This document shows positions 3,976 through 23,119 of a DNA stretch of 24,534 nucleotides, in pieces. The DNA is taken from the IMG/VR virus record IMGVR_UViG_3300023210_000211, positions 1 through 24,534 of that record. The stretch is one strand, 5' to 3'. The DNA comes from a virus. The notes beneath the pieces were generated by a model, which was given only the letters and a program-made list of their open reading frames with translations, was not told the origin of the DNA and searched no databases. The translations under genes were made by a program, and so were the position numbers. Positions within the stretch are counted from its first letter, which is position 1. Every line of letters starts with the position of its first letter.

Positions 3976-6129
3976 TTAAATTCTTTCAACCAAAAAGTAA
4001 TCTACTAAAATACGGTCTGCTGCATCTGCATGTTGACCTGTAACTTTTACCTCAACATCTGCGGTAGTGTCGATTGCTGAAGAAGTCTCATTCATCGTCA
4101 TTGTTCCATTATTATTAAGCTCCCAATAGACCATTTGTGCGCTCGTCCCAGTTGTGTTTTGTATGATAGCCTCAAGTTTCCACTCAACGGCATCATTCGC
4201 AGCAGGAAACACGGGAAAAGAAGTGGCTCCAAAATAAAGTTTAATAGTCTTATTACCGGCACCACCTGTCTTCTTACCTACCACAGTAACCTTAATGCCT
4301 CCACCCTCGCTTATTGGAGTTGCTCCAAGTGTGTTAGCTGGTATAGTTGTTCCGGCCAAATCAACCTCTGCTGTTGATGCTCCGGTTGATACACTCAAGG
4401 CCGATTTAGCATAATACAATTGCTGGCCTATAGTTCTCCATTCTCCAGGAGTTCCAGCCTCTATGCACGCCCACCCAGATGGGAAATCAGCATTTTGATT
4501 ATAGATAGTATCCCCCACATTCCAAGTACCTGTTGTGGGGATGACTGAGCCGTAAAAAACTTTCCTCCCAAACATTTGCCACGGAGTATCCCCTGTATCT
4601 GGAATGATAGTTGTCCTACGCCTCGCTGACGCATCTGCATAATTTATACGATCACTACCCGAGGAGATATATCCCTCTAATAGGATACCGTTATTTGATA
4701 TATCAAAATCATATGAGGCAGCCGGGTCATTCAACGTTATTTCCCTAACAATACCTCTTGATGCTGATTGGACTCCAGTAACAAAATTCTCAATAATCAT
4801 TCTATCAAAAATCCACCCCTGACTTGTGGTTGTAACACCTGTTTCAAATTGTGTGATATAGGCGTCTTCCACAGTTACAGTTGTACCTAATACAAGCTTT
4901 ATACCAATACCTGTAGTTCTACTTTTACCACTTACGTATACTTGCTCTATACTAGCGTCCAGAGGGTCCTCTAATATTATACCATTAGTGTGCTGTAGAA
5001 GTCTTACGTTTTCAATTTTAGGGTACCTCTGTACTTCTGATCCCGAGGAATAACCAGCTATACCGTACCCCGTGGAACCACCGGAGGAATTGATACGTAA
5101 ATCTCTTATTTGTACGTTTTGCAAACCCGTAATGGTGATAGAATCATTAGACGCATGAGTATTATCTAATCTACTCGCGTCTCTATTTAGGCCTTTTAGT
5201 GTTAAATCGTCTACCAAAGTAAGGCCTTCGTGTCTGTACACCCCAGGTAGTACTTCAATCTCACCACCTAAACCGTCCAAAGATGAAATAGTGGCCGACA
5301 TTGCGTCATGATCGGATATAGCATCCGCCGGGTTAGCCCCAAACCTATCAAAATGCTCTTTACCCCCAGCTTGATAAACTATAGCTCCACCGTTACTAAC
5401 GTCATATATTTGTTGATCAGGAGTCGAGTGGACATTACTAGGTCGATAGGGCCTTATAGTTACACCAGAAGTTGCAGGAACAAGTATAGCCCCATTCTCA
5501 AACTCAAGAGTGATGTTTTCTGGTATAGAGAAATTATTTAAGAATGTGAAGTCAGTCTCTCCGTCAGGGTCATCGTTACCGCAATAGATAGTTGCTAGGT
5601 CTGTGCCTATCCTGTTTTTAATGTCAGCAAAAGAGTTGTCGTCACCATCTACTGACTGATCCAAGACCTTATAATCAGGGTAATATATAGAGCCCCTATT
5701 AGGGGGGAAATAATTTATCACCTTACCAGGGCCTACTACATAATCAGAAAATGCCTCAATATTGCTCTCTGGTGGCAAAATAAGAGTCACACCTGATGCA
5801 ACATAAAATTGAGCCCCATTTTCAATATAGAGCCTCATTCTATCATAACCGCTCAAATCCAAGTCACTGGCTACCATATATTGTGTAGTGGTCCCACTCT
5901 TATCATGGTGCAAAATATTGGTATAATAAGGGGTTACGCCCTGGTCATCTATTATATTGTAGAAGGTAACGACTGAATTATCAGCTGATCCTTGGTCTGC
6001 TGCGCTTGGATCTGGTGCAAATTGCTCAAATTTGGGCGTGATCATATTGGGAAGTTCAGTATCTACAGTAAACGCATAGCTGTAACTTGAGGCCAGAAGG
6101 ATTAATAGTGTCAGGATTAGTCTTTTCAT
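3976..6129 (-). CDS. Tailspike, pectate-lyase-like beta-helix, with Sec signal peptide
   Basis: The protein has 717 residues. Residues 1-19 (MKRLILTLLILLASSYSYA) form a canonical signal peptide. Two N-terminal segments share the ENGA...SGVT...P pattern (around 100-125 and 210-235) common in phage fibre head-binding regions. From about 263, FDRFGANPADA...GGEIEVLPGVYR matches the start of the Pectate_lyase_3 fold, followed by beta-helix turns (LTLKGLNRDASRL, IRDLRINSSGG, IENVRLLQH). Later comes a WNVGDTIYNQ...GWACIEAGTPGEW module and a C-terminal beta-sandwich ending in DYFLVERI, probably for trimerisation. It likely binds or cleaves host surface polysaccharide; active-site acids cannot be assigned. 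AAGGGGAG (6134-6141) sets the start at 6129; an ATG 14 codons upstream lacks such a site and would overlap the previous gene. Confidence 0.85.
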   Translation of the reverse strand: MKRLILTLLILLASSYSYAFTVDTELPNMITPKFEQFAPDPSAADQGSADNSVVTFYNIIDDQGVTPYYTNILHHDKSGTTTQYMVASDLDLSGYDRMRLYIENGAQFYVASGVTLILPPESNIEAFSDYVVGPGKVINYFPPNRGSIYYPDYKVLDQSVDGDDNSFADIKNRIGTDLATIYCGNDDPDGETDFTFLNNFSIPENITLEFENGAILVPATSGVTIRPYRPSNVHSTPDQQIYDVSNGGAIVYQAGGKEHFDRFGANPADAISDHDAMSATISSLDGLGGEIEVLPGVYRHEGLTLVDDLTLKGLNRDASRLDNTHASNDSITITGLQNVQIRDLRINSSGGSTGYGIAGYSSGSEVQRYPKIENVRLLQHTNGIILEDPLDASIEQVYVSGKSRTTGIGIKLVLGTTVTVEDAYITQFETGVTTTSQGWIFDRMIIENFVTGVQSASRGIVREITLNDPAASYDFDISNNGILLEGYISSGSDRINYADASARRRTTIIPDTGDTPWQMFGRKVFYGSVIPTTGTWNVGDTIYNQNADFPSGWACIEAGTPGEWRTIGQQLYYAKSALSVSTGASTAEVDLAGTTIPANTLGATPISEGGGIKVTVVGKKTGGAGNKTIKLYFGATSFPVFPAANDAVEWKLEAIIQNTTGTSAQMVYWELNNNGTMTMNETSSAIDTTADVEVKVTGQHADAADRILVDYFLVERI

Positions 6130-6133
6130 TTGT

Positions 6134-6141
6134 CTCCCCTT
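6134..6141 (-). promoter_or_regulatory. Ribosome binding site that fixes the tailspike start
   Basis: On the minus strand AAGGGGAG lies 4 bases before the ATG at 6127-6129 and overlaps the stop codon of the upstream gene. This makes the signal-peptide-bearing form MKRLILTLL the primary product, rather than the longer form that starts MPSNQKMKTN. Confidence 0.75.
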
Positions 6142-8374
6142 ATTGGTTTTCATTTTCTGATTGCTGGGCAATGCCTAAGGCGGCAAGGATTCCAGGGTAA
6201 TTATTAGGTATTACTGTTTTGAGTCCCTCTAAATACGCCTCAGGGTCTTGCAGCTGCTCTCCTAGAGTCTGCGCCCTGAATGGTGTGCTTTTGGGTAGTA
6301 CTTCAGGCACAGGAGACAAGGACCCCTTAACGAAGCTTGCCTTTTTAATCGGGTCAGTTACAGCCTTGATAGCTCCAAAAGCCAAGTTAAATCCGGGCTT
6401 TGCAGAAATGGCACTGATTCCCATCCTATTAAACAAGTCAAGAATAACATTTGCCGACCCCTTTGGTGTTGTCTTGTCTGGTGGGGTTAATTCTGTTGCT
6501 ATTCTCTCTATATTGTTGAGCCTATTCAATACAGGTAAATTGTCTTTAAATATCTCTTTAAGCTTATCCTTGCCAAGAGTCTCCAGCCTTTTATTAAATG
6601 CCGTATGATTAAAGACAGGAATCCCATCTATCTGCCTGGAAGGGGTACTAAAACCAGCATTTACAAGATCAAATATAGTTGTTGTTTTTAGGGCCTCCAA
6701 TGAAAGCGCTCCCTCTTCCCCGGCCTCCTTTAAGGTCTCCATTAGCTTTCCTACCCTCTCAGCAGGAATCGCCTTGCTTGCTATCTTATCACTGTACACT
6801 TTAGAGGATTCAATCATTTGATCGACTCCGTCCCTGCCTGTAGCGATTAGCTGTTTTGCAAGAGCCTTATCACTATATTCCCCCTTTTTCTTCGCATGGG
6901 CTGCCCTAGCTTTCTTGAATGGGTCAACTATATCATCTGCAACGCCTGCATCCTCTAAGGCCCTTCCAACGGTGTCAAGCTCAGTATCTAATGATGATTT
7001 CAAGTCGTGGACTATCCCTCTGATTGCTCCAGTTGTATCGGCAGAAGATATATTATTCAGGCTCTTCCTGAATCTCTCAAAGTTGGTAGTGTCAAGGGGC
7101 GTATACTTTTTAATCCTTCCGGATATTTCTTCGGTGGGTTCAATAACTCCATACTTAGCTAATAATGTTTGCAAATCAGAGACAGATGCCCCTGCTGTAA
7201 TAGCAAGATCATCTAATTCGTCAATACCAGGCAGGGCACCTTCAATACGCTTAGTGAATATGGGAACAGACCCAACGTCCTTAACATTTTGGACCGCTGC
7301 GTCATACAGTTCCCTGGTAGCAGTACTCATCTGATTATAACGTCCTTCAAGCGCTTCTTTTATTAACTGTCCTGTTTCAGTCTTCGTGAATTCGGAAGGG
7401 AATAAATCGGTTAGCCTGTTCTTTATCCTTTCACTCTGCTTCAACTTGAACGTCCTGAATGGCTCCGCTGCTATATCTTCAGCAGAGCCCAATAATGATT
7501 CCTCTTTGGATAGTTGCTTAAAGTCCTTTGTAAGTTCACCCTTGGATATCGGAACCCCTTCCTCTGCAAAAAGTGCTGCCCTTGCAACCTGTTTAGGGTC
7601 GGCCCCTGCTGGCTGTGATTTAATAAAGGCCTGAGCCTCTTCTGTTAGATCCTCAAATGTCCGACCTGACATATCAAGAGCCTCTTTAAGTTCTGCTGTT
7701 GGAGTGCCCAAGTTGTCAAGCAGGGACCCCTTAGGAGCCTTGCCCATAATCTTTCTAAAAAACTTACCTAACATAGTTCCAAGAACAGGGAGGAACAACT
7801 CCGCACCAGTTGCCAATGCTGCGCCTGAAAAAGCCCCCTTTGTCTGATCTTCAGACAGTAATGCCCCTTCAAGGCCTCCAGCGGTTCCAGCTCCTCCTGC
7901 TGATACCAACCTTACAGCTTTGGGGCCAAGGCCTGCCCTTGATGCCGCTGCGCCTGCTCCCTCTGCGGCTACTAAACCAAGAGGCGCGAAAGGTGCCGCC
8001 TCCCCTAATGTTTCACCTGCTCCCGTGGTAATAGGTCTCTCTCTTTTTAGTGCTGCAATGCCCTCATACTCGGTTGGGTCAGCTGGATCAATTAGCCCAA
8101 CGCTGCGCCCTACATTAACAAAGCCCTTACCAGCTCCAATCAAGGTTGCCTGGATTGGCCCCACCTCTTGTGCCAGCTCCGAAAATACCTCTTCTCTTTG
8201 CCCTGCCATCTTTTCACGCAATGCAGCTGATCTTGATTCCTTAAAAGTCTGCCCCACACCAAGATCAAGGACTCCTTTTCTTGATAGAGCCTCAACTGAA
8301 GCCTTTTGATCAGGAGTCATTGTTCCTGAGTCGTATAACTCTTTTAACTTGGCGAGAGCTTTTTGATCTGCCAT
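6140..8374 (-). CDS. Large ejection/internal virion protein (P22 gp16-like in position)
   Basis: The protein has 744 residues, mostly helical, and starts MADQKALAKLKELYDSGTM. Residues 90-215 are alanine/glycine-rich with hydrophobic stretches (AGETLGEAAPFAPLGLVAAEGAGAA split by charges, then AGGAGTAGGLEGALL and FLPVLGTMLGKFFRKIMG) that could insert into membranes. The remainder is a long helical region (TATRELYDAAVQNVKDVGS, FEKARAAHAKK-type segments, LFNRMGISAISAKPGFNLAFG) ending in PGILAALGIAQQSENENQ. There is no signal peptide. It is the third and largest of three consecutive alanine-rich genes between the tail hub and tailspike, the slot held by ejection proteins in P22-like phages. It overlaps the previous gene by one base (TAATG). 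No enzymatic domain is recognised. Confidence 0.7.
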   Translation of the reverse strand: MADQKALAKLKELYDSGTMTPDQKASVEALSRKGVLDLGVGQTFKESRSAALREKMAGQREEVFSELAQEVGPIQATLIGAGKGFVNVGRSVGLIDPADPTEYEGIAALKRERPITTGAGETLGEAAPFAPLGLVAAEGAGAAASRAGLGPKAVRLVSAGGAGTAGGLEGALLSEDQTKGAFSGAALATGAELFLPVLGTMLGKFFRKIMGKAPKGSLLDNLGTPTAELKEALDMSGRTFEDLTEEAQAFIKSQPAGADPKQVARAALFAEEGVPISKGELTKDFKQLSKEESLLGSAEDIAAEPFRTFKLKQSERIKNRLTDLFPSEFTKTETGQLIKEALEGRYNQMSTATRELYDAAVQNVKDVGSVPIFTKRIEGALPGIDELDDLAITAGASVSDLQTLLAKYGVIEPTEEISGRIKKYTPLDTTNFERFRKSLNNISSADTTGAIRGIVHDLKSSLDTELDTVGRALEDAGVADDIVDPFKKARAAHAKKKGEYSDKALAKQLIATGRDGVDQMIESSKVYSDKIASKAIPAERVGKLMETLKEAGEEGALSLEALKTTTIFDLVNAGFSTPSRQIDGIPVFNHTAFNKRLETLGKDKLKEIFKDNLPVLNRLNNIERIATELTPPDKTTPKGSANVILDLFNRMGISAISAKPGFNLAFGAIKAVTDPIKKASFVKGSLSPVPEVLPKSTPFRAQTLGEQLQDPEAYLEGLKTVIPNNYPGILAALGIAQQSENENQ

Positions 8375-9759
8375 TATTGCACTCCTGCGGCTCTTTTAAT
8401 GAGCTCCTCGACACTCAGATTATCATAATCAGAATCAGGTAGGGTCTCGCCTGGCTCTTCTATCCTTATCGAGTCCACGGGCGTAAGGCTAAAGGATAGC
8501 AGGTCATCAATATCATTGACTGTGAATTCATCACCTCTTGCAACTGCTGCCGCCCTTGCTCTTTGTGCTGTGTTTTCAGCTATTCTAAGAGCCTGGGCCA
8601 ATAATCTCTTATTCGTCTCTGGTGACTTGGTGAAAGCAGCCTCAATCCTAGCAAGCCTTGAGCCCTCTGCTTCAGTGAATGCAGCGCCAAAAGTTTCCCT
8701 TAATTGAGATAAAACTGCCTTACCTAAAGTGTTGGACAGCTCACCTTCATCAGCGCTCTCAACACCAAATATCTGCTTGGCCCTTGCCGCCACAGCACTG
8801 AATCCACCTGTGTCAACTGAATCAAGCAGATCTATAGCCCTCCTTATGGTGGCGGTTGACTCTGCTGCTGCAACGCCTCTTGCTATTAACTCGGTAGCTT
8901 GGGCTTCAGTGCCTCTGGCTGCTGCCTCCTGGGCCACCTGACCGACCTCTCTTGCTGTTTCTTCCTGTCCTGTTTCGCCTAATTCAGATACAAGTTCGAG
9001 TCCAGATAATTCAGCCGTTTCAGTTTTGAGTGTCCCGGTGGATGGGTCAAAAGAGCCAACCGCAACCGCTGTTTGTCCTGTTGCTGGGTCTCTCACTATA
9101 AAGGATCCTGTTTTCTGGAAAGCGGTTCCTGCCTGCGCTGCTTCGGTCTGCTCTACTGTAAGCTGCTGCGCTGTAGTCGGCATAAGCTGATCAATGATAT
9201 TGCCCTCTGTATCATCTGAAAGCATTTTCATTTCCATGAGGATCTTGCTTGACACAACAGGATCTCTTTCTTTCCTGTATTGCTGCTCAAGAGATTGCAA
9301 GGTGCTCTGCCTATACAGTGGCCATCGTTCTTTGAAAGAGTTGTAAACTGTCCTGTGTGTTGCACCCTCTGCCCCTGCGAACTTATCAAGATCAGTCAAT
9401 ACAGAATCATAGGCGTTCAATACTCCTTTGCCCTCAAGAATCTTTTTGAATCCAGCCACTTTATCATGCCCAAAATTAGTATCTGCATGGCTGGCGACTT
9501 CCTGAGTGAATGCCTGATGTTCGCCCAACCTCTGCTCTTGGGCTCCAAGCCTTTGTTCCTGGGCTTGAGCGATTCCAAGCGTTGGTTTTTCAACCTCCTC
9601 AAACCTTCGCTCACTCAAATCAAGGGCTTGCTGCTCCTGCTGAGCCCCTGTGGCAAGTGCCTTTGCCCTGTCCCTTGCCTCCATTATAGATGATACTTGG
9701 CTCGGTAAGTCAGACAAAGCACTCCTCAATGGGCTAACACTTGTTAATCCATCAGCCAT
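8374..9759 (-). CDS. Coiled-coil ejection/internal virion protein (P22 gp20-like in position)
   Basis: The 461-residue protein is rich in A, E and Q. Residues 25-85 form a glutamine-rich coiled coil that includes a near-exact repeat (AQEQRLG, GAQEQRLG). Other helical segments are SFKERWPLYRQSTLQSLEQQYRKE-type and ELGETGQEETAREVGQVAQEAAARGTEAQ-type, split here for brevity. A beta-like insertion (GSFIVRDPATGQTAVAVGSF) lies near residue 220. The C-terminal third is a helical repeat region (AFTEAEGSRLARIEAAF, RLLAQALRIAENTAQRARAAA), and the end is acidic. It overlaps the upstream gene by 8 bases and the downstream gene by one, so the three genes are probably translated together. The composition fits proteins that are packed in the head and ejected with DNA. 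The specific role is inferred. Confidence 0.7.
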   Translation of the reverse strand: MADGLTSVSPLRSALSDLPSQVSSIMEARDRAKALATGAQQEQQALDLSERRFEEVEKPTLGIAQAQEQRLGAQEQRLGEHQAFTQEVASHADTNFGHDKVAGFKKILEGKGVLNAYDSVLTDLDKFAGAEGATHRTVYNSFKERWPLYRQSTLQSLEQQYRKERDPVVSSKILMEMKMLSDDTEGNIIDQLMPTTAQQLTVEQTEAAQAGTAFQKTGSFIVRDPATGQTAVAVGSFDPSTGTLKTETAELSGLELVSELGETGQEETAREVGQVAQEAAARGTEAQATELIARGVAAAESTATIRRAIDLLDSVDTGGFSAVAARAKQIFGVESADEGELSNTLGKAVLSQLRETFGAAFTEAEGSRLARIEAAFTKSPETNKRLLAQALRIAENTAQRARAAAVARGDEFTVNDIDDLLSFSLTPVDSIRIEEPGETLPDSDYDNLSVEELIKRAAGVQ

Positions 9760-10579
9760 TGGCTTGAACCTCCTTGCTTAATTCGTCCTTGATAAAACCC
9801 ATAACATTACAAACACTTAGGAAAAATTCACTCACAATCTTACTTGTAATATGTTTCCGCTTCTCATAATACCCAAGCTCTACATATCCATGGTCAATCA
9901 ACCTATCTACAAGGATCTTCTTGACTATGGCCTTGATAATACACGATTTATTAATAAAAGGCACGATTAAAGATGCCAGCCAATAATACCCTATTACCTG
10001 GGATCTGGTTAAAAATGTATCTCTATACTCCCTGGTCAACTCGACTTCTGGACTGTCGTGAGATGTGCAGGCTGTAACAATAATACATGAATCACTTGCT
10101 AAATCGGTTAATCCAGCAACTGGATTCAAGGCAATTTTGGCTAGGTCTTTATCCTCTGTCTCTTCTATAAATTCGCCACCCTTCTCAACTATGTCCATAC
10201 CAACATTGACCTTTTCAAATGCAGGCACTAAGACAGGACCAGCAGCAGCACCAACCTGTGATCCAACAGCAGCACCAACAGGCCCACCGAATACCCCGCC
10301 TACCGCACCACCTGCAACGGCTCCAGCGGCCTCATGTTTTTCCCTGGTAGACTGGGCCTTTTCTGCTCTGGCTGCTGCCTCTTCGCCCTTTCTTATGGCC
10401 TCTTGCCTTTCCTGCCTCTGCTTCTCAAGCTCTTGAACCTGCAATTTCTGACCAGCCTTAACGCTGGCTTCCTGTGCAAAACTTTCTGCGATGCCTGCCG
10501 TTTCAGCCTTAGATAGTGGCCTTCCTGCAATTCTTGCTCTTCTACGGGCAGACTGTAATGCAGATGCGAAATCAACCAT
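9752..10579 (-). CDS. Glycine-zipper protein with CFI-box-type C-terminal domain, probable ejection protein
   Basis: The protein has 275 residues in three parts. Residues 1-82 form a basic, glutamine-rich coiled coil. Residues 84-114 are a glycine zipper (GAVAGGAVGGVFGGPVGAAV, then GSQVGAAAGP), a motif of membrane-inserting or oligomerising helices. Residues 164-235 (SCIIVTACTSHDSPEV, LTREYRDTFL, GYYWLASLIVPFINKS, VKKILVDRLIDHG) match the CFI-box C-terminal domain pattern: a C-[FI]-I-x-T-A motif, then E-V...R-x-[FY]-R-D and YY. The gene follows the tail-hub gene, whose TAG overlaps its AGGAGGA site. As first and smallest of three alanine-rich proteins it resembles P22 gp7 in position. A CFI-box in a virion protein is unusual; its role is unknown. 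Confidence 0.72.
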   Translation of the reverse strand: MVDFASALQSARRRARIAGRPLSKAETAGIAESFAQEASVKAGQKLQVQELEKQRQERQEAIRKGEEAAARAEKAQSTREKHEAAGAVAGGAVGGVFGGPVGAAVGSQVGAAAGPVLVPAFEKVNVGMDIVEKGGEFIEETEDKDLAKIALNPVAGLTDLASDSCIIVTACTSHDSPEVELTREYRDTFLTRSQVIGYYWLASLIVPFINKSCIIKAIVKKILVDRLIDHGYVELGYYEKRKHITSKIVSEFFLSVCNVMGFIKDELSKEVQANG

Positions 10580-10590: not shown

Positions 10591-13500
10591 CTAATTGTCG
10601 AATATCCTATCAAGTGAATCATAATAAAGCCCTAAGCCTTGCAATTCCATACCATCAGCAACTGAACTTATGGTACTCGATATTTTGAAACTATGTGTCA
10701 AATATGGTCCCATTATACAGGACTGAGTGTCAAAAGGGCCAGAGTTTAAAGCTATAGAACTTGGAGATCTCTGCATGTTCGTTCCAGATACGGTCAAAAC
10801 ATCATCACCATAATGCTGTATAGATATGGACTCAGTTGCAGCACTTTTGTTTTCAAACATCAACCTTGTGTATTTGATGGTTGAGTTTTTCATTAATGGG
10901 TATGTTGGATCAAGGAAATGGTTCTTGGTCCATACATATTGGCTGATACCGGTACCGTTCCACGTGAAACCATTCTCAAGGCGATACATGGCCCCTTCAT
11001 CTGTAGCACCATAGGTATATCTTTTTCCTTCCTCAGTCTTAACCACAAAGGCACTCTGAAGCTGATTTGAGCCTGATCCGTTCTCTCTGTAAAGCTTGGT
11101 CCATTCCCCATATTTAAGCGAATATTCAAGCTCTACATTGTGAGTTGTTGCACCTGAACCTGATGATATCAAAAGCTTATAGGCCATAATATCAGAATCA
11201 AACCACCCAAGGCTATCGGGTTGTCTGTCTACAGGTATATAAGTAGGGTCGTCTGGATCCCAATAATTTCTAATGTCCGCATGGATAGGCACGATCACTG
11301 CGCCATCACACATATAAACTCCTGATGAGCCCTGCCAAATGGCGACATGTCTTTCGCCCTGTTCCTCGCTTGCAACTTCGCAAACGGTTATAGACAATGG
11401 AGCTATGCAACCTATGTTGCTAGACATTTGCTGAACCGTCCAATCTCCAGGGTATGTTCCAAACAACCTGTATGTTTCATTTTGCTTGCATACTATCAGC
11501 TGATCATATCCGGTAGAGTTGAACACATTATAAATATTTGCAGTCCCTATGATATCTTCATCAGTCCCAAAATATACAAATCCAGCATCAGAACCATTAA
11601 AAATATAAGGAGCATTGAAAGATGAAAATATAGCCTTATTTTTCTCTCCGCTCTGCTCAGACAATAATATGGTCCTATTCCCGTACAGAGCCGCAAACTT
11701 ATAATTCTTGATCTCTTCTTGGCTCGGTATACCTGTTATGTAATATATCTCCGTTTCATCGTCTAGATTCGCAGTCCATGACAACCTATAATAATACAAT
11801 TCAGCTTCTGTCTCTATGGCTGTAAGAAACTCATCTGACATATCGGGAGAATCAAAGGTTATAGTACCTGACTTGCTTAAGCTAACACCGTCAACATTGG
11901 TAGAGTCATCAATATTGCCTGCTTCCTGCCATGATCCGCCATCCCAATATGATACTGATACAGTGGCTGAGTTTCCGTTTCCTTTCTTCGCTGGTATGTT
12001 CAAGCTTATTGACTGCAACCTTTCTATGGATCCAATCAGCAAATAGTCATCAGCTGTTCCAAGATCATCCAAAACAACCACGGTTGTCGTATCGTCATCT
12101 TGGGCCTCAGGTGTGTAATCATTATAGACATCAGCATCAAATACAAAGCATGATGAGATTATAGCATTCGCACCGTCCCAGATATTAGATATCCCCTGGG
12201 GTTCTGCTGAGCCTGTAATGTATGATATTTCGACACCAGCATCGCATTGGCTCACCTCGATTTGATACCAAAAAAGCTCTATTTCATCCACAAGCTTTAA
12301 ACTGGCTATTTCTGTTGTGCTATCAAAGGTAACCGATCCAGTTTGATACATGCTTGTTGCACCGCTTGCTGTACCATCAACCAGATTAGAAACAGGTAAC
12401 CATTCGGATCCAGACCAGTAGTTCACCAACATGGTACTTGATGCGATATTCGGAGTCTCAATATACATCCTGAATCCGTCAAGCTTTAAATATGACCCAA
12501 GATACATGTATGTCTTGCCTGTAGATGTATATTCTGATGTGGGAGGAGTGAAAGCAGATGAATACCTGGCAACACCCTTGCTTACCCTTGTTTCATCTAT
12601 CCAACCATTAAAATCAAGCCCTATAGATACTCCACTTGCATAATCAGGGATTGCGCTTGACTCTGAAACAGATGCTTTCTGAACACCGTCAATCCATATA
12701 TTCCATGTATCTGTATCATTCCTGGTAACCGCGATATGATACCAAGTATTGGTTGATATAAGCCCATTTGCAGTACTTACACTCACAGCAGCAACATCAT
12801 CAACCTCATGGTAAAAGGCCACATTACCAGCAGACCCAACAAAAAACCCTGCATAATTTGTTGAGCCTGATCCCTGGTAATAAACATATAGATCATCATC
12901 AAGAGCATTTACACGCACCCATGTATCAATAGTTAAAGCAGATGACCCAAAGTTCCAATCATTTGAATCATGGATTGACAAATAATCTCCAGTTCCGTCA
13001 AACAGCCCAGAACTTAAACCAAATTTCTTGTATGCAGTATCGAGCTGAGCATTTCCGTTTGCAGTCACAACATGAGCGGACCCGCTATCATCCGTGAAAG
13101 TAGTACTTCCATCAAGTCCATTATTATGCAGCATTAATACCACATTGCTGTCGATTTCTGCCTCTGCTGAGGCTGTTACTGCAACATTCCCGCTATCTGT
13201 AAGAGTATTAGAAACCTGCTCTGAATAATCATATGAGAAGCTTCCATCCGGATCATATATCTTGAATCCTAAAACGCTGGACTCATCCCCTCCCCATATT
13301 AAGGTCTCCTCCCCGTTGGCATAGACAATATTCCCCTGGGGAGCTGGTGCGAATCTACCCAGGCCAGCACCTTGAGCATCATTATGCCATACCGTGCTTG
13401 AAAAATTACCTTGGTTGGGTATTGCAGTGGTGTTTCTATAAACACGGCCACTGGTTCCGCTTACATTGGTTGCATATACCAAAACATGGGATTCATCAGG

Positions 13501-13773: not shown

Positions 13774-14681
13774 AGAAGAAACGGAGCCCCCAGATCTTCC
13801 TTACTAGCTTTTTCCCAAAAGTCAGTATTAAGTGTTTTCATTGCTTCAAGTTGGTTGGCATATAACCCAGGCCATAATGTTGGATTATCAACCATCACAT
13901 TGTTTTCTGCAAGCCTGGTTGCTGCCCCTGATACTATCATATGGTGGAACTGTGGCGGCAATAAAGGAACGTCTGTGCTGTTTACGAGCCTTGGGGCTCT
14001 GGCTTCGAACCAATATCTGAGCTTGTAATTGTCGTCAGAGCTTGGATGCCATATGATTTGATTTGTCTCTCCTCCTGTGCTGCTGAAACTTTTGCCTGCA
14101 TAATATCTTTCAGGTAACCCCGTGTTATCTGTCCAGTGGTTTTCACCGTAATCCTGATCAAATCCGTCTGGACCAATTGGAGTCATTGCCTTTTCATCAT
14201 TCCAAGATGCGTTGGTTATTCTCTGTATTGACTTTCCCGTTGTATTTAATGTCAGACCTCTATGGCCTATTATGCCACCGCTTTCATATGAGCTATATGA
14301 AGCTGTTGAGATCCCCAGATTTAAAAGATTTGGACCAGGCACAGAATTAACAGCGGCTATTCGCTCATTTACCTCTGTCATACCTTGGACGTTATTAATC
14401 ACAACCAACGCACCAACGCTTAATCCATGGGGTGATTCTGTGGTAAAAATACCAGGGTTTGCCTTTGATATCGCCGTGATATTGGAAGGGGCTTGAGCCT
14501 CAAGAGAGTCATCCAAATCGATCATCCACCAGAGAGGATTATTCCTGTCATAAACCATAATTTCATTCAAGTAGACCATGTTTACAACATCCTCGATGAT
14601 GTCATTCATGGAGTTATTGAAATCCCTAATGATATTCTTAACTCTGGTCTTTATTTGCCCATAATTTAAATAATCAGTCAT
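13770..14681 (-). CDS. Head-tail adaptor / connector protein with an FCCH-like insertion
   Basis: The protein has 303 residues. The helical N-terminus (YGQIKTRVKNIIRDFNNSMNDI, ending VNMVYLNEIM) and the late segment PLLPPQFHHMIVSGAATRLAENN are typical of phage gp4/gp6-like adaptor proteins that bind beneath the portal. Between them, residues 66-115 (ITAISKANPGIFTTESPHGL, then VGALVVINNVQGMTEVNERIAAVN) match the small beta-domain described as E1-FCCH-like, often inserted in phage structural proteins. The remaining beta region (IIWHPSSDDNYKLRYWFEAR) is also adaptor-like. It is the first gene after the intrinsic terminator at 14693-14722, with AAAGGAC as ribosome binding site, and starts the tail part of the operon. 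Confidence 0.78.
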   Translation of the reverse strand: MTDYLNYGQIKTRVKNIIRDFNNSMNDIIEDVVNMVYLNEIMVYDRNNPLWWMIDLDDSLEAQAPSNITAISKANPGIFTTESPHGLSVGALVVINNVQGMTEVNERIAAVNSVPGPNLLNLGISTASYSSYESGGIIGHRGLTLNTTGKSIQRITNASWNDEKAMTPIGPDGFDQDYGENHWTDNTGLPERYYAGKSFSSTGGETNQIIWHPSSDDNYKLRYWFEARAPRLVNSTDVPLLPPQFHHMIVSGAATRLAENNVMVDNPTLWPGLYANQLEAMKTLNTDFWEKASKEDLGAPFLL

Positions 14682-14743: not shown

Positions 14744-15565
14744 TTATCTGAGTCTTGTGAACAGGTAATGAATGTAACCTGCTGCGGTATCAGATCCGGC
14801 TGAACCTGTATAAGTCAGGCTGACTGCGTTGGCTCCAGTGCAGACATGGCCATCAGGATCAAAGTTTGTACCATCATCCATCAAGGCCCCTGAAGTGGTC
14901 AGGGTCACAAGAGGATAACCAGCGGTTGCAACTGATACTCCAGCAAGGAACCCGTTTGCATCTCCAGCTGTTTCAGAAGAAAGCAGGCCAATGTCAATTG
15001 TTTCAGTGGCATCTACTGTCACAATTTCAGCCTGTACATGCTCGATAAGAGTATCATACTGAAAATTAACACCTGTGTCAGTCTCTGAGTTATCAGAAGC
15101 ACCAAACCATATCATTCCAGTATGCTGCTCACCTGGGCTCTCATCAATTATGATAGTATGCTGATACTGATTGAAGTCCTCAACAAAGGCCGTATAACCA
15201 CCATCTGTATTGACTACGATCAGATCTACATTCTCATCCCCTGCCTCGCCTGGGTCAACTCTAAACCTTACATAGTCATTACATGTAACAGAGCTTGCAA
15301 AGGCTGTAGCTGATACAGGATTGGTGATTGATGTCATGGTGTCATCATCAAACTTATAAAGAGTCTCCGCTGTGTCAGAGTTTGCCTGTAGAACCTTAAA
15401 AGTAATCCCTGAGGTCTCCCTGACAAGGTTTTTCTCTCCAATGGCATTCGTTGTGCCATCCCAAGAGTAAACGGCTGCTGTCATGTCCTTAAATTCTGCC
15501 TGAGCTGCGCCTGCATAAACACAGAACATCATCGCAATTGTGATCAGTGTAAAAAGTTTTTTCAT
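14744..15565 (-). CDS. Secreted-type beta-rich virion/decoration candidate
   Basis: The protein has 273 residues. Residues 1-23 (MKKLFTLITIAMMFCVYAGAAQA) form a textbook signal peptide with an A-x-A cleavage site before EFKDM. The mature part is beta-rich and poor in lysine. It includes SITNPVSATAFASS, VRFRVDPGEAGDENVDLIVV, GYTAFVEDF, YQHTIIIDESPGEQHTGMIW and DTLIEHVQAEIVTVDATETI. The NPVSATAF...VDLIV.(D/N)T.GGYTAFVEDF pattern recurs in capsid-proximal phage proteins that I would call decoration or head-fibre candidates. The gene is the last before the terminator and lies just downstream of the capsid and three-repeat genes. GGAGAGGA overlaps the stop of the preceding gene and lies 4 bases before the ATG, so the signal-peptide start is well supported. 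Confidence 0.7.
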   Translation of the reverse strand: MKKLFTLITIAMMFCVYAGAAQAEFKDMTAAVYSWDGTTNAIGEKNLVRETSGITFKVLQANSDTAETLYKFDDDTMTSITNPVSATAFASSVTCNDYVRFRVDPGEAGDENVDLIVVNTDGGYTAFVEDFNQYQHTIIIDESPGEQHTGMIWFGASDNSETDTGVNFQYDTLIEHVQAEIVTVDATETIDIGLLSSETAGDANGFLAGVSVATAGYPLVTLTTSGALMDDGTNFDPDGHVCTGANAVSLTYTGSAGSDTAAGYIHYLFTRLR

Positions 15566-15566: not shown

Positions 15567-16226
15567 TTATCCTCTCCAAGAGTTGGAATTATTGCCCACG
15601 GTGTTACCCCGTGAGTTTTCCACTCTCATTAAAATGTTTGCTGTGAACCAAAGAGCCTCATAATTGGTATCAGTAACACCCGAATCGGAATCAAGCTGCT
15701 CTGTGAGTGTCTCAATTGCGTCAACCAGGTCATACAACCAATCAACTAGCTCTCTCTGAGGGCCTAAACCACTACCAGGATTAAACCAAAACGCCTTGCC
15801 ATTGCCAAGGGTATTACCCTGCTGGTTTGTAACCATCTTAAGGCATTTAGCCGTATATACGTTCGCCTCATAATCAGTGTCATTAACAGTTCCATCCGCG
15901 TCAAGCTGCTCTGTCAATGTCTCAAGGCTGTCATATATCTGATAGGCAAGCTCAATCAGTCCGTCTGCGCTCTCTCCATAAGGACTGATCTTTTTGAAAT
16001 TCTTTTCGGCAAGGTACTGACCTGTTTTATTGCCCCTGGTATCCTCAATAATTGTATTGAAAATAGCAGTATAGCAATTAGCCTCGTAAGTTTCATCAGT
16101 GACACCACCATCATCATCCAGCTTGGTGCAGATGCCCTTAATTGAGCTGACTATCATATACAGCAAATTGACAAGATCTTTCTGACTCAAGCCAGTGGGC
16201 TTTATATCAGGGTATATACTCGCCAT
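15567..16226 (-). CDS. Three-repeat protein of the head region, unknown function
   Basis: The 219-residue protein is built from three copies of a 55-60 residue helical unit at about 12-69, 86-142 and 153-212 (period 70-72). Each unit has a leucine/tyrosine-rich helix (LLYMIVSSIKGICTKLD, LAYQIYDSLETLTEQLD, WLYDLVDAIETLTEQLD), a D/G/V/T turn, and a [TN]D-x-x-YEA-x-x-[YF]TA segment, and ends near (R/Q)GN(T/K). The linkers contain glycine and proline. There is no signal peptide or membrane segment. It follows the capsid-linked 229-residue gene by 3 bases and precedes the secreted-type gene by 1. The family is not recognised; the modular helical repeats suggest a spacer, neck or decoration role. 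Confidence 0.75.
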   Translation of the reverse strand: MASIYPDIKPTGLSQKDLVNLLYMIVSSIKGICTKLDDDGGVTDETYEANCYTAIFNTIIEDTRGNKTGQYLAEKNFKKISPYGESADGLIELAYQIYDSLETLTEQLDADGTVNDTDYEANVYTAKCLKMVTNQQGNTLGNGKAFWFNPGSGLGPQRELVDWLYDLVDAIETLTEQLDSDSGVTDTNYEALWFTANILMRVENSRGNTVGNNSNSWRG

Positions 16227-17016: not shown

Positions 17017-17023
17017 AGCCAAA

Positions 17024-18013
17024 TTAATTATTGGTCCTCATTGTTCTGACAGCGATCACAGCATTGTCAGCACCGTTAAACACATTCTTGGTTGTTCCAT
17101 AGATGGAACCGATACAGAAACCAACCTTATTCTTGTAGTCAAAGGTTTTCTCTGTCCAGATCTTACGCTTTGCGTATGCAATGGCACCGGCTCCGCAACC
17201 CATAAAAAGTGAAGTGGTTCCGTTTACATTGGCACCAGATCCCCAGTTTGTGGATGTGGCTGTTCTGGAATGCTCATGGATAGCTGTACCCTTATGCACT
17301 CCAAGTGCTGTATGGAATATAGGGTTATCAGGTCCAGCCTTCATAGCTTCACGCTGAGCCTGCGCCCATGCGGCGTCTCTTTCAGACAGGTCAAAAGCTG
17401 AGTCAGGAGAGGTCACAAAAGCAAAGCCCTCTTTCCCCATCATCTTCTTTCCTATGATCTTTGGAGTTGCCTTGTGAGCGTATGCAACACACTTACTGAT
17501 AAGGCTTAGAGTGAGATAGTCACCCGCCTCGATAGTTGCTGTACTGGTTGCATCACCACCATAAATAACCTTTGTTGGAGATGTGCCAAGATCAGTGAAG
17601 AAATCCTGATCAATAGTCTCAGCCATCCACCTTTTAAGCAGCTCCTTGGCCCATTTCCTGACGCTCTTGTCAGATGGGTACTGATCAGAAAGCTTTCCAA
17701 AGGTACGGATTGCGTTTCTTTTCTGGTCCAGGGTGATAGCATCATCAAATACATCTGGAACTTCCTCATTGCCTTCCATGGTGGAGTCACCAGATACACC
17801 AGATCCTGAAAGATCCCTGAGCTGTCCAAAGTTGTGCTGATATCCCTGCTCTTTCTCAAGGTCAGGAAATTCAACTATAAAATCATTCATTTCAGATGGA
17901 CCAACAAAACCATGTCCGTAGAAATAAGACTCAGTCTTTGCCTCTATCCACCATCTCTTAGCCCAAGTCTGGGCTGTCAGTGCGTCTGTAGTTTTAAATT
18001 CCCAATCTGCCAT
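17024..18013 (-). CDS. Major capsid protein, DUF4043 / N4-gp56 type (HK97 fold)
   Basis: The protein has 329 residues. Hallmarks of the Phage_capsid_3 (PF13252) / N4-gp56 group are visible: WAKRWWIEAKTESYFYGHGF near the N-terminus; LRDLSGSGVSGDSTMEGNEE (about 65-84), the family's most typical stretch; DDAITLDQKRNAIRTFGKLSDQ; and WMAETIDQDFFTDL. A C-terminal P-domain region includes FAFVTSPDSAFDL, GVHKGTAIHEHSR, LFMGCGAGAIAYAKRKIW and GFCIGSIYGTTKNVF. It forms the icosahedral shell, aided by the acidic scaffold gene just upstream (28-base gap). AAAGGAC precedes the ATG. There is no signal peptide, in contrast to several neighbours. Confidence 0.88.
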   Translation of the reverse strand: MADWEFKTTDALTAQTWAKRWWIEAKTESYFYGHGFVGPSEMNDFIVEFPDLEKEQGYQHNFGQLRDLSGSGVSGDSTMEGNEEVPDVFDDAITLDQKRNAIRTFGKLSDQYPSDKSVRKWAKELLKRWMAETIDQDFFTDLGTSPTKVIYGGDATSTATIEAGDYLTLSLISKCVAYAHKATPKIIGKKMMGKEGFAFVTSPDSAFDLSERDAAWAQAQREAMKAGPDNPIFHTALGVHKGTAIHEHSRTATSTNWGSGANVNGTTSLFMGCGAGAIAYAKRKIWTEKTFDYKNKVGFCIGSIYGTTKNVFNGADNAVIAVRTMRTNN

Positions 18014-18041
18014 TTTAAAGTCCTTTCAGACTTGATACCGA

Positions 18042-19148
18042 TCAAATAGGATCCCAGTCTATACCTGGAAACTTATCCTTAAGAGATTGAGGGGCATCCT
18101 TTAAAAAGCCACCATACTCTTTCTCAGACATATTATTCATCTTAGAAACCATCTGGTGCTCTGACATTTGCTCAAAAGACTCCCACTTATTACCAGCTGG
18201 CCTGTCTCCACTTCCACCCTGTACTGTATGGCCCGGGTTCTGCTTGAGCTTATTGCCCAAATTCCTGGCTCCATTCTTCAGGGCATCCTCTATGATCTTA
18301 TCCTTAAACAAATAAGTGTAAGCCACGTCAAGGTTTGTGGTGTGATTCTTAGGGTCAGATATAAAATCTATGACCTGCTGTAATGCACCGTCAACCCCTG
18401 CGACTTCATCAGATGATAAGGCTTTAAGATCTTCTTTGCCATAATGGTTTTTCGCAAATGTCTCTTTAAAGGTTGAAACATCACGCTCCGCCTGGGCTTT
18501 CTCTTCCTCTGCTGCGGTTGCCTGCTTGGCCTGCTCTGCCCTCACTTCGTCATTGGCTCGCTCTGTGTTGAGCTTCCAAGAGATATAAAGGTCTGCTGCT
18601 GCCATTGGGTCAACTTTCTGCACTTCGGCTAGAGTCTTGCCCTTGTGAGTCCCAGAATCAACAATCAGGTTTGCTGCTGCTGCTGGGCTGGTATCCTGTA
18701 TCTGTGTGGATACCTGAGCAGGCGTAGGCTGAGTGTTTTTAGGGGCAGGGGCCTTGTAATCAGCCGGTGCCTTATCTGGGTGCAGTTCGTAATATTTCTC
18801 AACTCCTAAGGTCTTGATCAGTTCAAGTTCACGTTTAGTTTCGTTTTTCTCCCAAGTAAGCGCGTCAATCCTTTTGTCAAGATTGCTCTTTGGTTCACCT
18901 GGTACGGGTTCTTGGCCTCCTGGCTCTGGCTCCTGCTCACCCTCTTTGTCTGGGTCAACATTTGGCTCTGGCTCAGCTGGTTGCTCTGGTTCTTGTCCTG
19001 GGTCAGCTGGTGGGTCGTCAATCGCTGGCTCACCTTCTGTCCCTGGTTCAGGATTTCCAGGTTCCTGTGCAGGCTCCTCCTGCGGCTCTACTTCTCCCAA
19101 TTCGACTAATTCCTCTGGTGTAAAGCCTTCATTTAAATCTACTCCCAT
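18042..19148 (-). CDS. Scaffolding protein, acidic proline-rich N-terminus
   Basis: The protein has 368 residues. Residues 1-85 are strongly acidic and proline-rich with EP/QEP/DP repeats (VELGEVEPQEEPAQEPGNPE, PGQEPEQPAEPEPNVDPD). Residues 85-110 contain a coiled-coil element (LDKRIDALTWEKNETKRELELI). The middle holds another long helix (ERANDEVRAEQAKQATAAEE). The C-terminus (WESFEQMSEHQMVSKMNNMS) probably contacts the shell. This composition and the place between portal and capsid genes are standard for scaffolds of P22/N4-like phages. The scaffold acts inside the procapsid and leaves or is degraded before packaging. AAGGAG lies 7 bases before the ATG. Confidence 0.85.
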   Translation of the reverse strand: MGVDLNEGFTPEELVELGEVEPQEEPAQEPGNPEPGTEGEPAIDDPPADPGQEPEQPAEPEPNVDPDKEGEQEPEPGGQEPVPGEPKSNLDKRIDALTWEKNETKRELELIKTLGVEKYYELHPDKAPADYKAPAPKNTQPTPAQVSTQIQDTSPAAAANLIVDSGTHKGKTLAEVQKVDPMAAADLYISWKLNTERANDEVRAEQAKQATAAEEEKAQAERDVSTFKETFAKNHYGKEDLKALSSDEVAGVDGALQQVIDFISDPKNHTTNLDVAYTYLFKDKIIEDALKNGARNLGNKLKQNPGHTVQGGSGDRPAGNKWESFEQMSEHQMVSKMNNMSEKEYGGFLKDAPQSLKDKFPGIDWDPI

Positions 19149-19176
19149 ATTACTCCTTTTTGCATGTCTCTTATGA

Positions 19177-19227: not shown

Positions 19228-19234
19228 ATGATTC

Positions 19235-19480: not shown

Positions 19481-21412
19481 TTATTGCGCTCCTTGTTGTT
19501 GTATTTGCTGTTGTTGGGCCTGTAATTCTGCCCTTTCCCTTTGTCTCTGCCTTTCTACCACTGAATCCTTATTCGGATCATCTATATAGTCAAGAGCTGC
19601 CTCTGTATCAAATATCTGGGCATTTCTAAGCTCTATTGCTGCTCCAAGTTTTGCCATCCTATTGGTGGGCATACTTGAACCAGCTGTGATTTTAACATCA
19701 ATATCAACTATGGAAAGCTCTGGGTTGCCATCAATGGGGGATATAAGGTTAAGAGCCTCAAGCCATCTGTTTTTTATTAAGATACCCTGCTCTTTCTTCA
19801 TCCTGGCGATCTCTTCAACAGCCTGGCCCTGCTCTTCTGCCTGCTGTATCTTCTGCTCGGCCTCAAGCCTCTCCTCTTCTGGCAACCACTCATACAACTC
19901 AGAATCCTCTATCAACCTCTCCCATTGGTCACGACTCCAGAAGCGCATGCACTTTGCAATGATGGACTTGCCAAGCCTGACCAAGGCTGACTCCAAGGCC
20001 CTCAAGAAAGGCTTTGACATCATCGCACCAAACTCCTGAAGAGCGTAAACAGTCTGCCATGCTATGCGCTCTGATATGTTTCCACGCATTACATCGGATA
20101 AGTCATACTGATTATCAACATCAGTTGAATTAAGCTGCTCAAGCTCACCAAATAACTGCACATTGGCTGCACCAGACCCCAATCTGTAAGGCTGAAAGGC
20201 TGCGTTTTGATCAACTATAAGCTCAGACCCTGGTGTACCTGGTTGACCCTGCCAGACCGCATTCTTTGGCCTGACTACTGGACTTGCTGCAAGCTGAGTA
20301 ACTGCATATGTCAGCTGCGCTCTACGCTTTATTAGGTCCCTGTTACTCTCCACTGCATAATTAGTTGGGCTCATTGGGTAGGCTGTTCTGGTCCTGTGAT
20401 GTGGTAGCCCTGCCCAATCAATAATAGGCTCGCCATCGGCGTCCACACCCTCAGGGTTCACCTCATTGCTCATCACCTTTTTGCCAACTATAACAATCTT
20501 TCGTCTTACTTCTCTTCCCTTCTCAATGACCTCCACAACTTTGTTGGCCTCAATAGCTGCATCAGCCTCTTCCTTGGTCTCAAAAGTAACAGGAACCACT
20601 TTCATACCATTGACTTGATAACCAAAGTATTCAGGCACAGTCTCAAGCATCCAAGCTTCTATCTCCCATACCATGGGCCGCTCATCACAGTCAGCGTCTT
20701 TCTCACTCACGTTCTCTGCATAGTTGTCACCTGAAGTAAGCCCCTCTGAAAGGGTCGGCTCTCCTATGTCACTGCTGGTGCTAAACTGGATATCCTCTTC
20801 TTTAATCCCAGGATAGTGTGACTTGATATAGTCTGGGGTTCTCTCTATGGCCTTAATCATGTGGGTGTCAGAGAAATCTCTTTTGCGGCTCTTCGGATCC
20901 CAATAGAAATTAGTCGGGTCTTCCTCTGCAAATATTATTCTGCCAAATGGCCCCTTAGTGACATCAAACCAACAACCTATCATTCCCTGAGCACCAACCT
21001 TGGCTTCCTCTACCAGGCGGTAAGTCTCATCTTGTCCCTCATTCTTCTCCCAGACAACATCGTTCGCCCTTTTAAGGAGTTCAGCAACATACAGGTCACC
21101 CTTTCCTATGGGGTTAAACTTAAGCTCTGGTTTCTGGTCTGTGACTATTGCAGATGCACCCTGAACACCCTTAACAATCTTATTGATGGTAGGCTGATCA
21201 ATACCAAGCTTTGACATCTCTTGGATATCTTTCTCGGTAAGGATCTCGTTTTCCATAGCATCCCATGCAATCTTACGGTCCTTGATCCATTTTGCCCTTG
21301 CAGTCGCACCATCATAATACTTTAGGGTCTTATAGACCTCCTTGACCTCATCAGGCATGTCTCCACACTTACATATAAAATCAAGGCTTGATGTGACTAT
21401 TGATTCTGGCAT
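19481..21412 (-). CDS. Portal protein, P22 gp1-like
   Basis: The protein has 643 residues. Portal features in order are: an N-terminal helical wing (VYKTLKYYDGATARAKWIKD, DWM-type A-W-D-A-M-E-N); IVKGVQGASAIVTDQKPELK; the stem/clip region with VEEAKVGAQGMIGCWFDVTK, FAEEDPTNFYWDPKSRKRDF and DTHMIKAIERTPDYIKSHYP; a crown helix region (NRDLIKRRAQLTYAVTQLAA); and a glutamine-rich C-terminal barrel-like coil (EERLEAEQKIQQAEEQGQ, RERAELQAQQQQIQQQGAQ). The dodecameric portal is the DNA gate at one capsid vertex and docks the terminase. Its size is close to the P22 portal (725 residues). It starts directly after the stop of the previous gene with GGAGG 10 bases upstream. Confidence 0.85.
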   Translation of the reverse strand: MPESIVTSSLDFICKCGDMPDEVKEVYKTLKYYDGATARAKWIKDRKIAWDAMENEILTEKDIQEMSKLGIDQPTINKIVKGVQGASAIVTDQKPELKFNPIGKGDLYVAELLKRANDVVWEKNEGQDETYRLVEEAKVGAQGMIGCWFDVTKGPFGRIIFAEEDPTNFYWDPKSRKRDFSDTHMIKAIERTPDYIKSHYPGIKEEDIQFSTSSDIGEPTLSEGLTSGDNYAENVSEKDADCDERPMVWEIEAWMLETVPEYFGYQVNGMKVVPVTFETKEEADAAIEANKVVEVIEKGREVRRKIVIVGKKVMSNEVNPEGVDADGEPIIDWAGLPHHRTRTAYPMSPTNYAVESNRDLIKRRAQLTYAVTQLAASPVVRPKNAVWQGQPGTPGSELIVDQNAAFQPYRLGSGAANVQLFGELEQLNSTDVDNQYDLSDVMRGNISERIAWQTVYALQEFGAMMSKPFLRALESALVRLGKSIIAKCMRFWSRDQWERLIEDSELYEWLPEEERLEAEQKIQQAEEQGQAVEEIARMKKEQGILIKNRWLEALNLISPIDGNPELSIVDIDVKITAGSSMPTNRMAKLGAAIELRNAQIFDTEAALDYIDDPNKDSVVERQRQRERAELQAQQQQIQQQGAQ

Positions 21413-21880: not shown

Positions 21881-21889
21881 ACTGGCCTC

Positions 21890-22255
21890 TTAATTATATC
21901 TGTAATAAACGATGAGTTCTGCTGTCCCTGAGGTGGTAAACTCTGCGTAAATACCAGACGGACAATCAAAATTAAGTCCTGTGGCCCCATTCAAGCCAAG
22001 GTTTGCAGCCACAATGCCATGTGTTGGCACTATCTCCCTGCCTGTGTTGTCTGTCCCATCATAGATAGTGAAAGCAGAGACGTCATTTGTCCCATCAGTC
22101 CCCATCAGGTAGCCCTTCATTATGGCTGATCCATTGGCAATGATACCTGAAGAGGTTAGCTTCTTAAACTGAAATGCCCCCTCTTCTGCGTGTCCTGCTC
22201 CAGAAAGACAAACAAGCCCGATTACCGCTATTATTGCTATAAATCTTTTTATCAT
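21890..22255 (-). CDS. Small secreted-type beta-sandwich protein
   Basis: The protein has 121 residues. Residues 1-23 (MIKRFIAIIAVIGLVCLSGA, ending GHA) are a signal peptide cleaved before EEGAFQF. The mature 98 residues look like a single beta-sandwich: FKKLTSSGIIANGSAIMKGY, DVSAFTIYDGTDNTGREIVP, GIVAANLGLNGATGLNFDCP, SGIYAEFTTSGTAELIVYYR. The LTIYD-x-T-x-x-x-G...ELIVYYR pattern is common in small phage capsid- or fibre-associated proteins, which are normally without signal peptide. AAGGAG lies 9 bases before the ATG and overlaps the upstream stop, so the start is sound. It lies between terminase and portal genes, so expression is late. Virion decoration or envelope display are both possible. 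Confidence 0.7.
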   Translation of the reverse strand: MIKRFIAIIAVIGLVCLSGAGHAEEGAFQFKKLTSSGIIANGSAIMKGYLMGTDGTNDVSAFTIYDGTDNTGREIVPTHGIVAANLGLNGATGLNFDCPSGIYAEFTTSGTAELIVYYRYN

Positions 22256-22267
22256 GATCTCATCTCC

Positions 22268-23119
22268 TTAATATACATGTAAAAGTAAGCCGTTAATATC
22301 GCTGAGGTCTCCAGACTTAACCACAGCAGATACGCTGTCTATTATAAAAGAGGCTGCTGCGCCTCCCTTTGTTGATATGTAAAGCTCTCCTGTTGCTATG
22401 GTCAAAGGAAAACCTGACATTCCCGCTGATGTGATCTCATATGAGTTGGCCCCACCATCAGAAACAACTACTGTGCCAGATGTCAAGGTATCGACATTCA
22501 ACATCATATTGTAATCTTCATTCGCAAGGGCTTGCTTGATACTGAAGACTGTCCCGCCACTATCGAACTTAACTAGACCCTGGTTCGGATCATAGCAAGT
22601 GTGTTCTGTTGCGGTTCTGGTCCCAACCTCCGTCCAATTATCAAGAGTTAGAGTCTTTAAAGATATGCCACCTAAAACTATAGTGGTAAGATCCGTACCC
22701 TTGGCCCTTAAGGCAAAATCTGTCGGGCTGGATCCAGTGTTACAATCATAAAGAATGTCAGTGCTTGGAAACTCGTTTATTGCCTGCTTGGAAGGGAAAA
22801 AGGTATCTCTGACTTCACAGTTGCTTGATTGGTTGTACTCAAGGATCTCAACAGTAACCATACATGATTGATACGCAGGGACTGGTTCGTCATTAGTAGA
22901 CAAGTTGCCTGCGGCCGTACCGTTATGTGTGGCGGTGCTGCCTGAGATACTCCATGGTGCTTGTGTGGACCAGCCTGTTCCAGTATCAAAACCAGGATCA
23001 GTCGCCAATTCTGCGCTTGCTGTGGTCGATGTGAATTCAGGATTTGACAGTTCATTGGAAAGAGCCTGAGATAAACCCAAGGAAAGGAATAGAGCTGTTA
23101 ATATTAATCTCTTAATCAT
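22268..23119 (-). CDS. Secreted-type protein with a carbohydrate-binding-like module
   Basis: The protein has 283 residues. The N-terminus MIKRLILTALFLSLGLSQAL is a signal peptide with cleavage near ALS or SQA. Residues 35-100 (ELATDPGFDTGTGWSTQAPW, SISGSTATHNGTAAGNLS) match the galactose-binding-like module often seen in phage structural proteins (N-G-D-F...G-W...W-x-I-x-G-G-x-A). A second similar half follows (TDFALRAKGTDLTTIVLGGI, TLDNWTEVGT), then a beta region (GTVVVSDGGANSYEITSAGM, GELYISTKGGAAASFIIDSV). The start lies 8 bases inside the 3' end of the terminase gene. AAGGA is 11 bases upstream, weaker than its neighbours. A glycan-binding decoration or host-surface protein is the best guess. 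Confidence 0.7.
   Translation of the reverse strand: MIKRLILTALFLSLGLSQALSNELSNPEFTSTTASAELATDPGFDTGTGWSTQAPWSISGSTATHNGTAAGNLSTNDEPVPAYQSCMVTVEILEYNQSSNCEVRDTFFPSKQAINEFPSTDILYDCNTGSSPTDFALRAKGTDLTTIVLGGISLKTLTLDNWTEVGTRTATEHTCYDPNQGLVKFDSGGTVFSIKQALANEDYNMMLNVDTLTSGTVVVSDGGANSYEITSAGMSGFPLTIATGELYISTKGGAAASFIIDSVSAVVKSGDLSDINGLLLHVY

Follow-up and report, generated by a model that had tools for sequence, protein, structure and literature searches.

Within the IMG/VR virus record IMGVR_UViG_3300023210_000211, whose full stretch of 24,534 bases we call the window, five genes of the virion series of a tailed phage begin with Sec signal peptides, or leaders, and in a clade of uncultured podoviruses related to this phage, such leaders are conserved on the capsid-cement-like protein and the tail nozzle protein. 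They are restricted to exterior parts of the virion and absent from the interior and shell genes, the nozzle has a single copy in each near-complete contig, and distant homologues have no leader. We consider it somewhat probable, going by the genes, that these phages export their exterior virion parts (cement, nozzle, and spike or fibres) through the host Sec pathway and join them to DNA-filled heads around lysis.

Sec Leaders in the Window

Leaders were called with a self-written heuristic score that requires three features (basic n-region, hydrophobic core, small residues at −3 and −1). In its calibration on two E. coli K-12 stretches, the cut-off of 5.9 recovered 9 of the 13 known signal-peptidase-I proteins, with 1 of 20 inner-membrane and none of 46 cytosolic proteins also passing it. 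An earlier sequence-only reading had placed Sec/signal-peptidase-I leaders on five proteins of the window, and all five were found where it had put them, with scores of 6.3, 7.55, 7.3, 6.67, and 6.59, each having the basic n-region, the hydrophobic core, and the small −3/−1 residues. When residues 2–31 were shuffled, the observed score was reached in only 0–6 of 2000 trials per protein. That the remaining virion genes have no leader was likewise seen, since 20 further genes of the window (13 of the virion and packaging series, the others being lysis and plus-strand genes) all stayed below 5.9, with a lysis-region lipoprotein scoring highest at 5.7.

Four of the leadered starts have Shine-Dalgarno-like motifs (AAGGA, TAAGGAG, GGAGAGG, and TAAGGGG). 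The start at 13773 has none and overlaps the stop of the adaptor gene by four bases (ATGA), and it is therefore probably translationally coupled. Mis-called starts were ruled out by these Shine-Dalgarno sites, by the adaptor overlap, and by the conservation of the leaders described below, and lipoprotein (signal peptidase II) signals on the five proteins were ruled out by a negative lipobox scan.

Identity of the Leadered Proteins

The capsid-cement-like protein (273 amino acids, 14744..15565, on the minus strand as are all five; leader MKKLFTLITIAMMFCVYAGAAQA/E) gave an AlphaFold2 model with a predicted local distance difference test score (pLDDT) of 86.9, which Foldseek placed with probability 1.00 on the capsid entries 7dn2 (Helicobacter phage KHP30) and 7eel (cyanophage Pam1), with TM-scores (template modeling scores) to the target of 0.60 and 0.51, about half of the query covered, and E-values of just 0.009. 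The cement proteins of KHP30 and Pam1 have the Ig-like fold common to the cements of GP4, BPP-1, and epsilon15 (PMC9698820). Given a modelled Ig-like/jelly-roll fold and a head-cluster gene near that of the capsid, being the third after it throughout the clade, we describe this protein as cement-like. It is one of three that the sequence-only reading took for beta decoration proteins, and the one with structural support as capsid cement; the other two are candidate virion proteins only, namely a beta-rich protein of 283 amino acids (22268..23119; leader MIKRLILTALFLSLGLSQA/LS) whose gene overlaps the terminase stop and for which no homologue was found in the clade loci, and a small beta protein of 121 amino acids (21890..22255; leader MIKRFIAIIAVIGLVCLSGAGHA). 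The family of the latter has leadered and leaderless members in G013 (L058, L064, L065), G005 (L059), and G008 (L060), and both kinds of copy occur even inside one contig.

The largest leadered protein (1060 amino acids, 10591..13773; leader MRILLTLFIYFILLGICNA/QS) contains an inserted LamG domain and had been taken for a hub. It is better read as a tail nozzle protein, because its gene directly follows that of an SU10-type adaptor and because Foldseek aligns its model (pLDDT 62) over nearly its full length, with low TM-scores, to the tail chains 9k09_U of cyanophage A4 and 7z4f_G of SU10, in which gp17 forms the nozzle and attaches to the adaptor (PMC9509320). A profile search of the PDB with this protein gave nothing beyond LamG-type domains. 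The fifth protein is a tail spike or fibre (717 amino acids, 3976..6129; leader MKRLILTLLILLASSYSYA/F) with a PHROG tail-fibre match near its C-terminus and a leadered homologue of 391 amino acids in G005.

Conservation across the Clade

Relatives were collected by capsid-based scans of IMG/VR, which gave about 40 contigs of uncultured podoviruses with capsids 56–72% identical; some of these overlap or are near-copies, so the counts given here include partly overlapping contigs, and clustering at 90% identity leaves 21 clusters for the cement slot and 12 for the nozzle. The sequence-only reading had proposed a search for signal peptides at the same gene positions in related contigs, and this search found them in every intact homologue of the cement (29/29) and of the nozzle (19/19). 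Eleven other genes of the same contigs, among them those for terminase, portal, scaffold, capsid, adaptor, and ejection proteins, gave 308 homologues, none with a leader (capsid 0/46, scaffold 0/41, the 219-residue head-region protein 0/38, portal 0/37, adaptor 0/26). Three further nozzle matches were scored as having no leader: the genes in L023 and L024 are broken between leader and body, and L088 is a match to LamG only. In both broken genes (L024:14355-14567, and L023), an open reading frame with the leader lies just upstream of the nozzle body, pointing to a frameshift or an assembly error. In the L016–L018 lineage, all that is left of the cement gene is a decayed stretch of 61 codons (L080:8714-8899), and the nozzle leader is retained.

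Across these homologues, the leaders keep the charge of the n-region, with an acidic residue in just one, and almost all keep the small −3/−1 residues. Leader identity is 0.38 compared with 0.44–0.46 for the mature parts, so that both have diverged about equally, which agrees with the earlier statement that the leaders are not recent copies of one another; recent copying of a single leader was ruled out on this ground. A strong Shine-Dalgarno site stands ahead of nearly all cement leader starts. A single nozzle gene is present in each near-complete contig, and no second, leaderless nozzle was found in these contigs, which means that no leaderless copy is there to serve the virion. In larger contigs, leaders also occur on a classical tail fibre (G024, 727 amino acids; tail collar fibre PHROG, E 7.6e-11) and on proteins of G021 (1005 amino acids), G017 (649), and G013 (354) whose length, gene position, and sequence resemble those of fibres.

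Origin of the Leaders

In the capsid tree, a branch with 100/100 support sets apart the contigs with a leadered cement, and beyond this branch, none of 91 virion-region genes of distant contigs has a leader. The same is true of the roughly 83 annotated genes of the public relatives SopranoGao, BcepIL02, KLEP18-1, Atu_ph08, and ctDrO704, and of the virion genes of SU10. A leaderless cement homologue is found in the distant contig L090, directly after the capsid gene (33% identity over 246 columns, E 3e-27). Homologues without the leader were what the sequence-only reading had named as evidence against itself, and the outcome is divided: all close homologues are leadered, and the distant one in L090 is leaderless. 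Taken together, this indicates that the leader was gained and that its start was not mis-called. The basal relatives L083 and L117 (one metagenome-assembled genome, MAG) have a leadered cement and a leaderless nozzle, and hence leaders were added stepwise; they appear to have been gained first on an existing head protein and later on the nozzle.

The cement slot of L034/L038 and that of L101 contain proteins without detectable cement homology that are leadered nonetheless, and the presence of unrelated leadered proteins in this slot argues for selection on export there rather than for one inherited accident. The L034/L038 slot protein had no significant match among leaderless post-capsid virion proteins. 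L101 also has an unrelated capsid gene (39-815; Phage_capsid_4/Mu gpT-like, just below the cut-offs) despite having the same adaptor, a leadered nozzle, and the Wzy_C gene described next, which looks like a head-gene swap.

A Membrane Gene beside the Cement Gene

Many members encode a multi-span membrane protein of Wzy_C or PMT_2 type within the late virion module, its gene lying immediately behind that of the cement and ahead of that of the adaptor (L009:13507-15039, L010:14657-16210, L012:9582-10664, L101:1550-2686, and others). The Wzy_C match in L101 reaches 45.7 bits against a Pfam cut-off of 31.7, that of most others being below the cut-off, and the PMT_2 match in L010 is above its own. 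An alignment of the Wzy_C-like set has an invariant Arg and an invariant His, and a gene of this kind follows the cement gene in both L083 and L117. These genes had no Pfam match to PglL_A or PglL_B, and a profile search of the PDB with the family added nothing.

Enzymes of the Wzy_C and PMT families act at the periplasmic side of the inner membrane. PglL genes usually adjoin the genes of their protein targets, and PilO also has no PglL_A/PglL_B motifs (PMC3643930). From the site of these enzymes and this adjacency, periplasmic glycosylation of the exported virion parts is plausible; modification of host polysaccharide by a WaaL/Wzy activity is an equally open reading of the membrane gene.

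Proposed Assembly Route and Its Alternatives

In well-studied podoviruses and in lambda, cement, nozzle, spike, and fibres come onto the heads from the outside, once these have expanded or been filled. Here, the leadered set consists of just such late-added exterior parts and the leaderless set of the interior and the shell, and this is the main reason why we propose assembly in two compartments. Cement, nozzle, and spike or fibres would be made as Sec precursors, while capsid, scaffold, portal, adaptor, and ejection proteins would remain in the cytoplasm and build DNA-filled heads. The leadered parts would then cross the inner membrane, lose their leaders to signal peptidase I, and wait in the periplasm, where many members probably have a phage-encoded membrane glycosyl-transfer enzyme close by. 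They would meet the heads when lysis breaches the inner membrane, no later than the opening of the outer one. We infer export, cleavage, periplasmic storage, joining at lysis, and glycosylation from sequence.

Several points weigh against this route. We know of no tailed phage in which the parts are joined at lysis, such joining would be sensitive to dilution, and filled heads would need to stay intact while lacking the nozzle, which is expected to help retain DNA. The nozzle itself is best read as such from its position and a low-confidence model, its sequence-profile comparison with other nozzles not being significant. There is no disulfide signature, with cysteine number varying, and disulfide bonds as the reason for export were rejected as no paired-cysteine pattern was found. 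Lastly, the leaders are called by a heuristic score in uncultured contigs known from their genes alone.

An extension of the same route, in which export arose first for modification of the cement (O-glycosylation by a Wzy_C/PglL- or PMT-like enzyme) and the nozzle and fibre leaders came later, is a tentative possibility. It would fit the order in the basal L083 and L117, which have a leadered cement, then a Wzy_C-like gene, and a leaderless nozzle, and it draws further on about 12 other contig groups with a Wzy_C- or PMT_2-type gene at this place, those of L101 and L010 above the Pfam cut-offs, and on the adjacency of PglL genes to their targets. However, such a gene is missing there in the window, L006, L036, L038, and the L022 group, and with PglL_A/PglL_B unmatched, the enzyme might just as well act on host polysaccharide. 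A two-compartment lineage in its most complete form, with DNA-filled heads in the cytoplasm, periplasmic cement, nozzle, and fibres glycosylated by a phage Wzy_C/PMT-type enzyme, and both halves joining at lysis, is in our judgment doubtful.

It is unlikely that the proteins are exported and cut but act outside the particle, in surface display, receptor blocking against superinfection, or adhesion. The 121- and 283-residue proteins, being only candidate virion parts, would suit such a role, the LamG and spike domains bind sugars, and the nearby membrane glycosyl-transfer genes could alter the host surface; yet the virion would then be left with no nozzle, this gene being single-copy, a classical tail fibre is leadered too, and the cement protein resembles the cement proteins of capsids. 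Equally improbable are uncut hydrophobic N-termini serving as anchors, in the particle or as tethers of assembly to the inner membrane. Every leader is indeed a strongly hydrophobic helix, and by the SU10 domain layout (PMC9509320), the N-terminus of the nozzle would sit near the adaptor, but the same type of leader is found on proteins at very different places of the virion, and the small −3/−1 residues, needless for an anchor, are kept in almost all sequences. Because of this retention, the anchor half of the earlier proposal, which had offered export or virion anchoring, is disfavoured, and export is the better idea. A leaderless cytoplasmic form made from an internal start, with the leadered form minor or regulatory, is very improbable, since the ATG found near the cut site in some genes (M22 of the window nozzle, M28 of the cement) is not conserved and almost never has a Shine-Dalgarno site, whereas the cement leader start has a strong one in nearly all sequences.

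Other Genes of the Window

The window is a single long minus-strand late module followed by a lysis region. The module runs through terminase-like, portal, scaffold-like, capsid, SU10-type adaptor, and nozzle genes, three genes at the ejection position, and the spike. Its leaderless members, all on the minus strand, are a P22-like portal (19481..21412; P22_portal match), an acidic protein that is scaffold-like by position and composition (18042..19148), the major capsid protein (17024..18013; Phage_capsid_3, phrog_334), the 219-residue head-region protein (15567..16226), the tail adaptor (13770..14681; SU10_adaptor), whose stop is overlapped by the nozzle start, and the three genes at the ejection or internal-protein position (6140..10579). 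The adaptor also has an E1_FCCH domain (PF16190) above its own cut-off, and the 275-residue protein at 9752-10579 seems to have unlike N- and C-terminal halves, possibly from a domain swap or a frame error. The portal had no match among INPHARED isolates at E 1e-5, and tblastn of INPHARED with the portal, the cement, the nozzle minus LamG, and the 121-residue protein gave none either.

The compact lysis region (2145-3967) encodes a single-span protein, a small protein resembling by eye the permuted NlpC/P60 (YiiX-like) type, two overlapping lipoprotein/membrane genes, and a DUF5675 protein. The overlapping pair (3012..3615, minus strand) is short and stands at a spanin-like position, with a lipobox SGC found by the scan at the 3320 start, the 3615 start having been judged by eye; this spanin-like pair suggests lysis of a double-membrane host. 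As to the host itself, only two MAGs were found, labelled Omnitrophota and Deltaproteobacteria/Myxococcota, with no further close relatives among 395 and 384 genomes of these phyla. On the plus strand, the gene at 1216-2001 encodes a P-loop kinase domain (AAA_33, with a weak Zeta_toxin match) and a C-terminal part that is HAD phosphatase-like by eye, perhaps an end-healing enzyme.

Comparison with Known Systems

The sequence-only reading had called the leaders a coordinated and undescribed feature, and they do stand at the same gene positions throughout the clade and are absent from interior genes. In the open full text of PMC, subscription papers and preprints being largely outside it, we found no description of tailed-phage virion proteins with Sec leaders, and as far as we found, a two-site assembly route is undescribed for tailed phages. 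If true, this clade would break the view that tailed-phage virions assemble wholly in the cytoplasm, export would let virion proteins be oxidised, glycosylated, or concealed in a natural way, and the time and place of tail joining could be approached from a new side.

Other tailed-phage proteins do use the host Sec pathway, such as the secreted and signal-arrest-release (SAR) endolysins (Lys44 of fOg44 and others; PMC6116005), but those are lysis enzymes, in contrast to the virion parts described here, and domain and PHROG searches found no lytic enzyme domain in the five leadered proteins. Lom of lambda is a signal-peptide protein encoded near tail genes (PMC12309495); unlike the present proteins, it is a non-virion outer-membrane protein of lysogens and has no counterpart to the pattern seen here on nozzle, cement, and fibres throughout a clade. 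The tail of the Kuravirus SU10 and the cements of Pam1, KHP30, and GP4 are structural counterparts of the nozzle and the cement, those virion genes of SU10 being leaderless. The PglL/PilO O-oligosaccharyltransferases share with the clade a Wzy_C-type membrane enzyme adjoining the gene of an exported protein (PMC3643930), although PglL_A and PglL_B motifs were not detected here, and the enzyme is a putative one.

The likeness to the filamentous phages (Inoviridae) lies in virion proteins with Sec leaders, here read from the genes alone. In those phages, pIII and pVIII have Sec signal peptides that are cut before assembly, and the single-stranded DNA virion is extruded through the membrane without lysis. 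In contrast, the phage of the window, with its P22-type portal and Phage_capsid_3 capsid, does not belong to this extruded class: it has a terminase, a portal, an HK97-type capsid, and ejection genes, and its leaders are found exclusively on exterior proteins.

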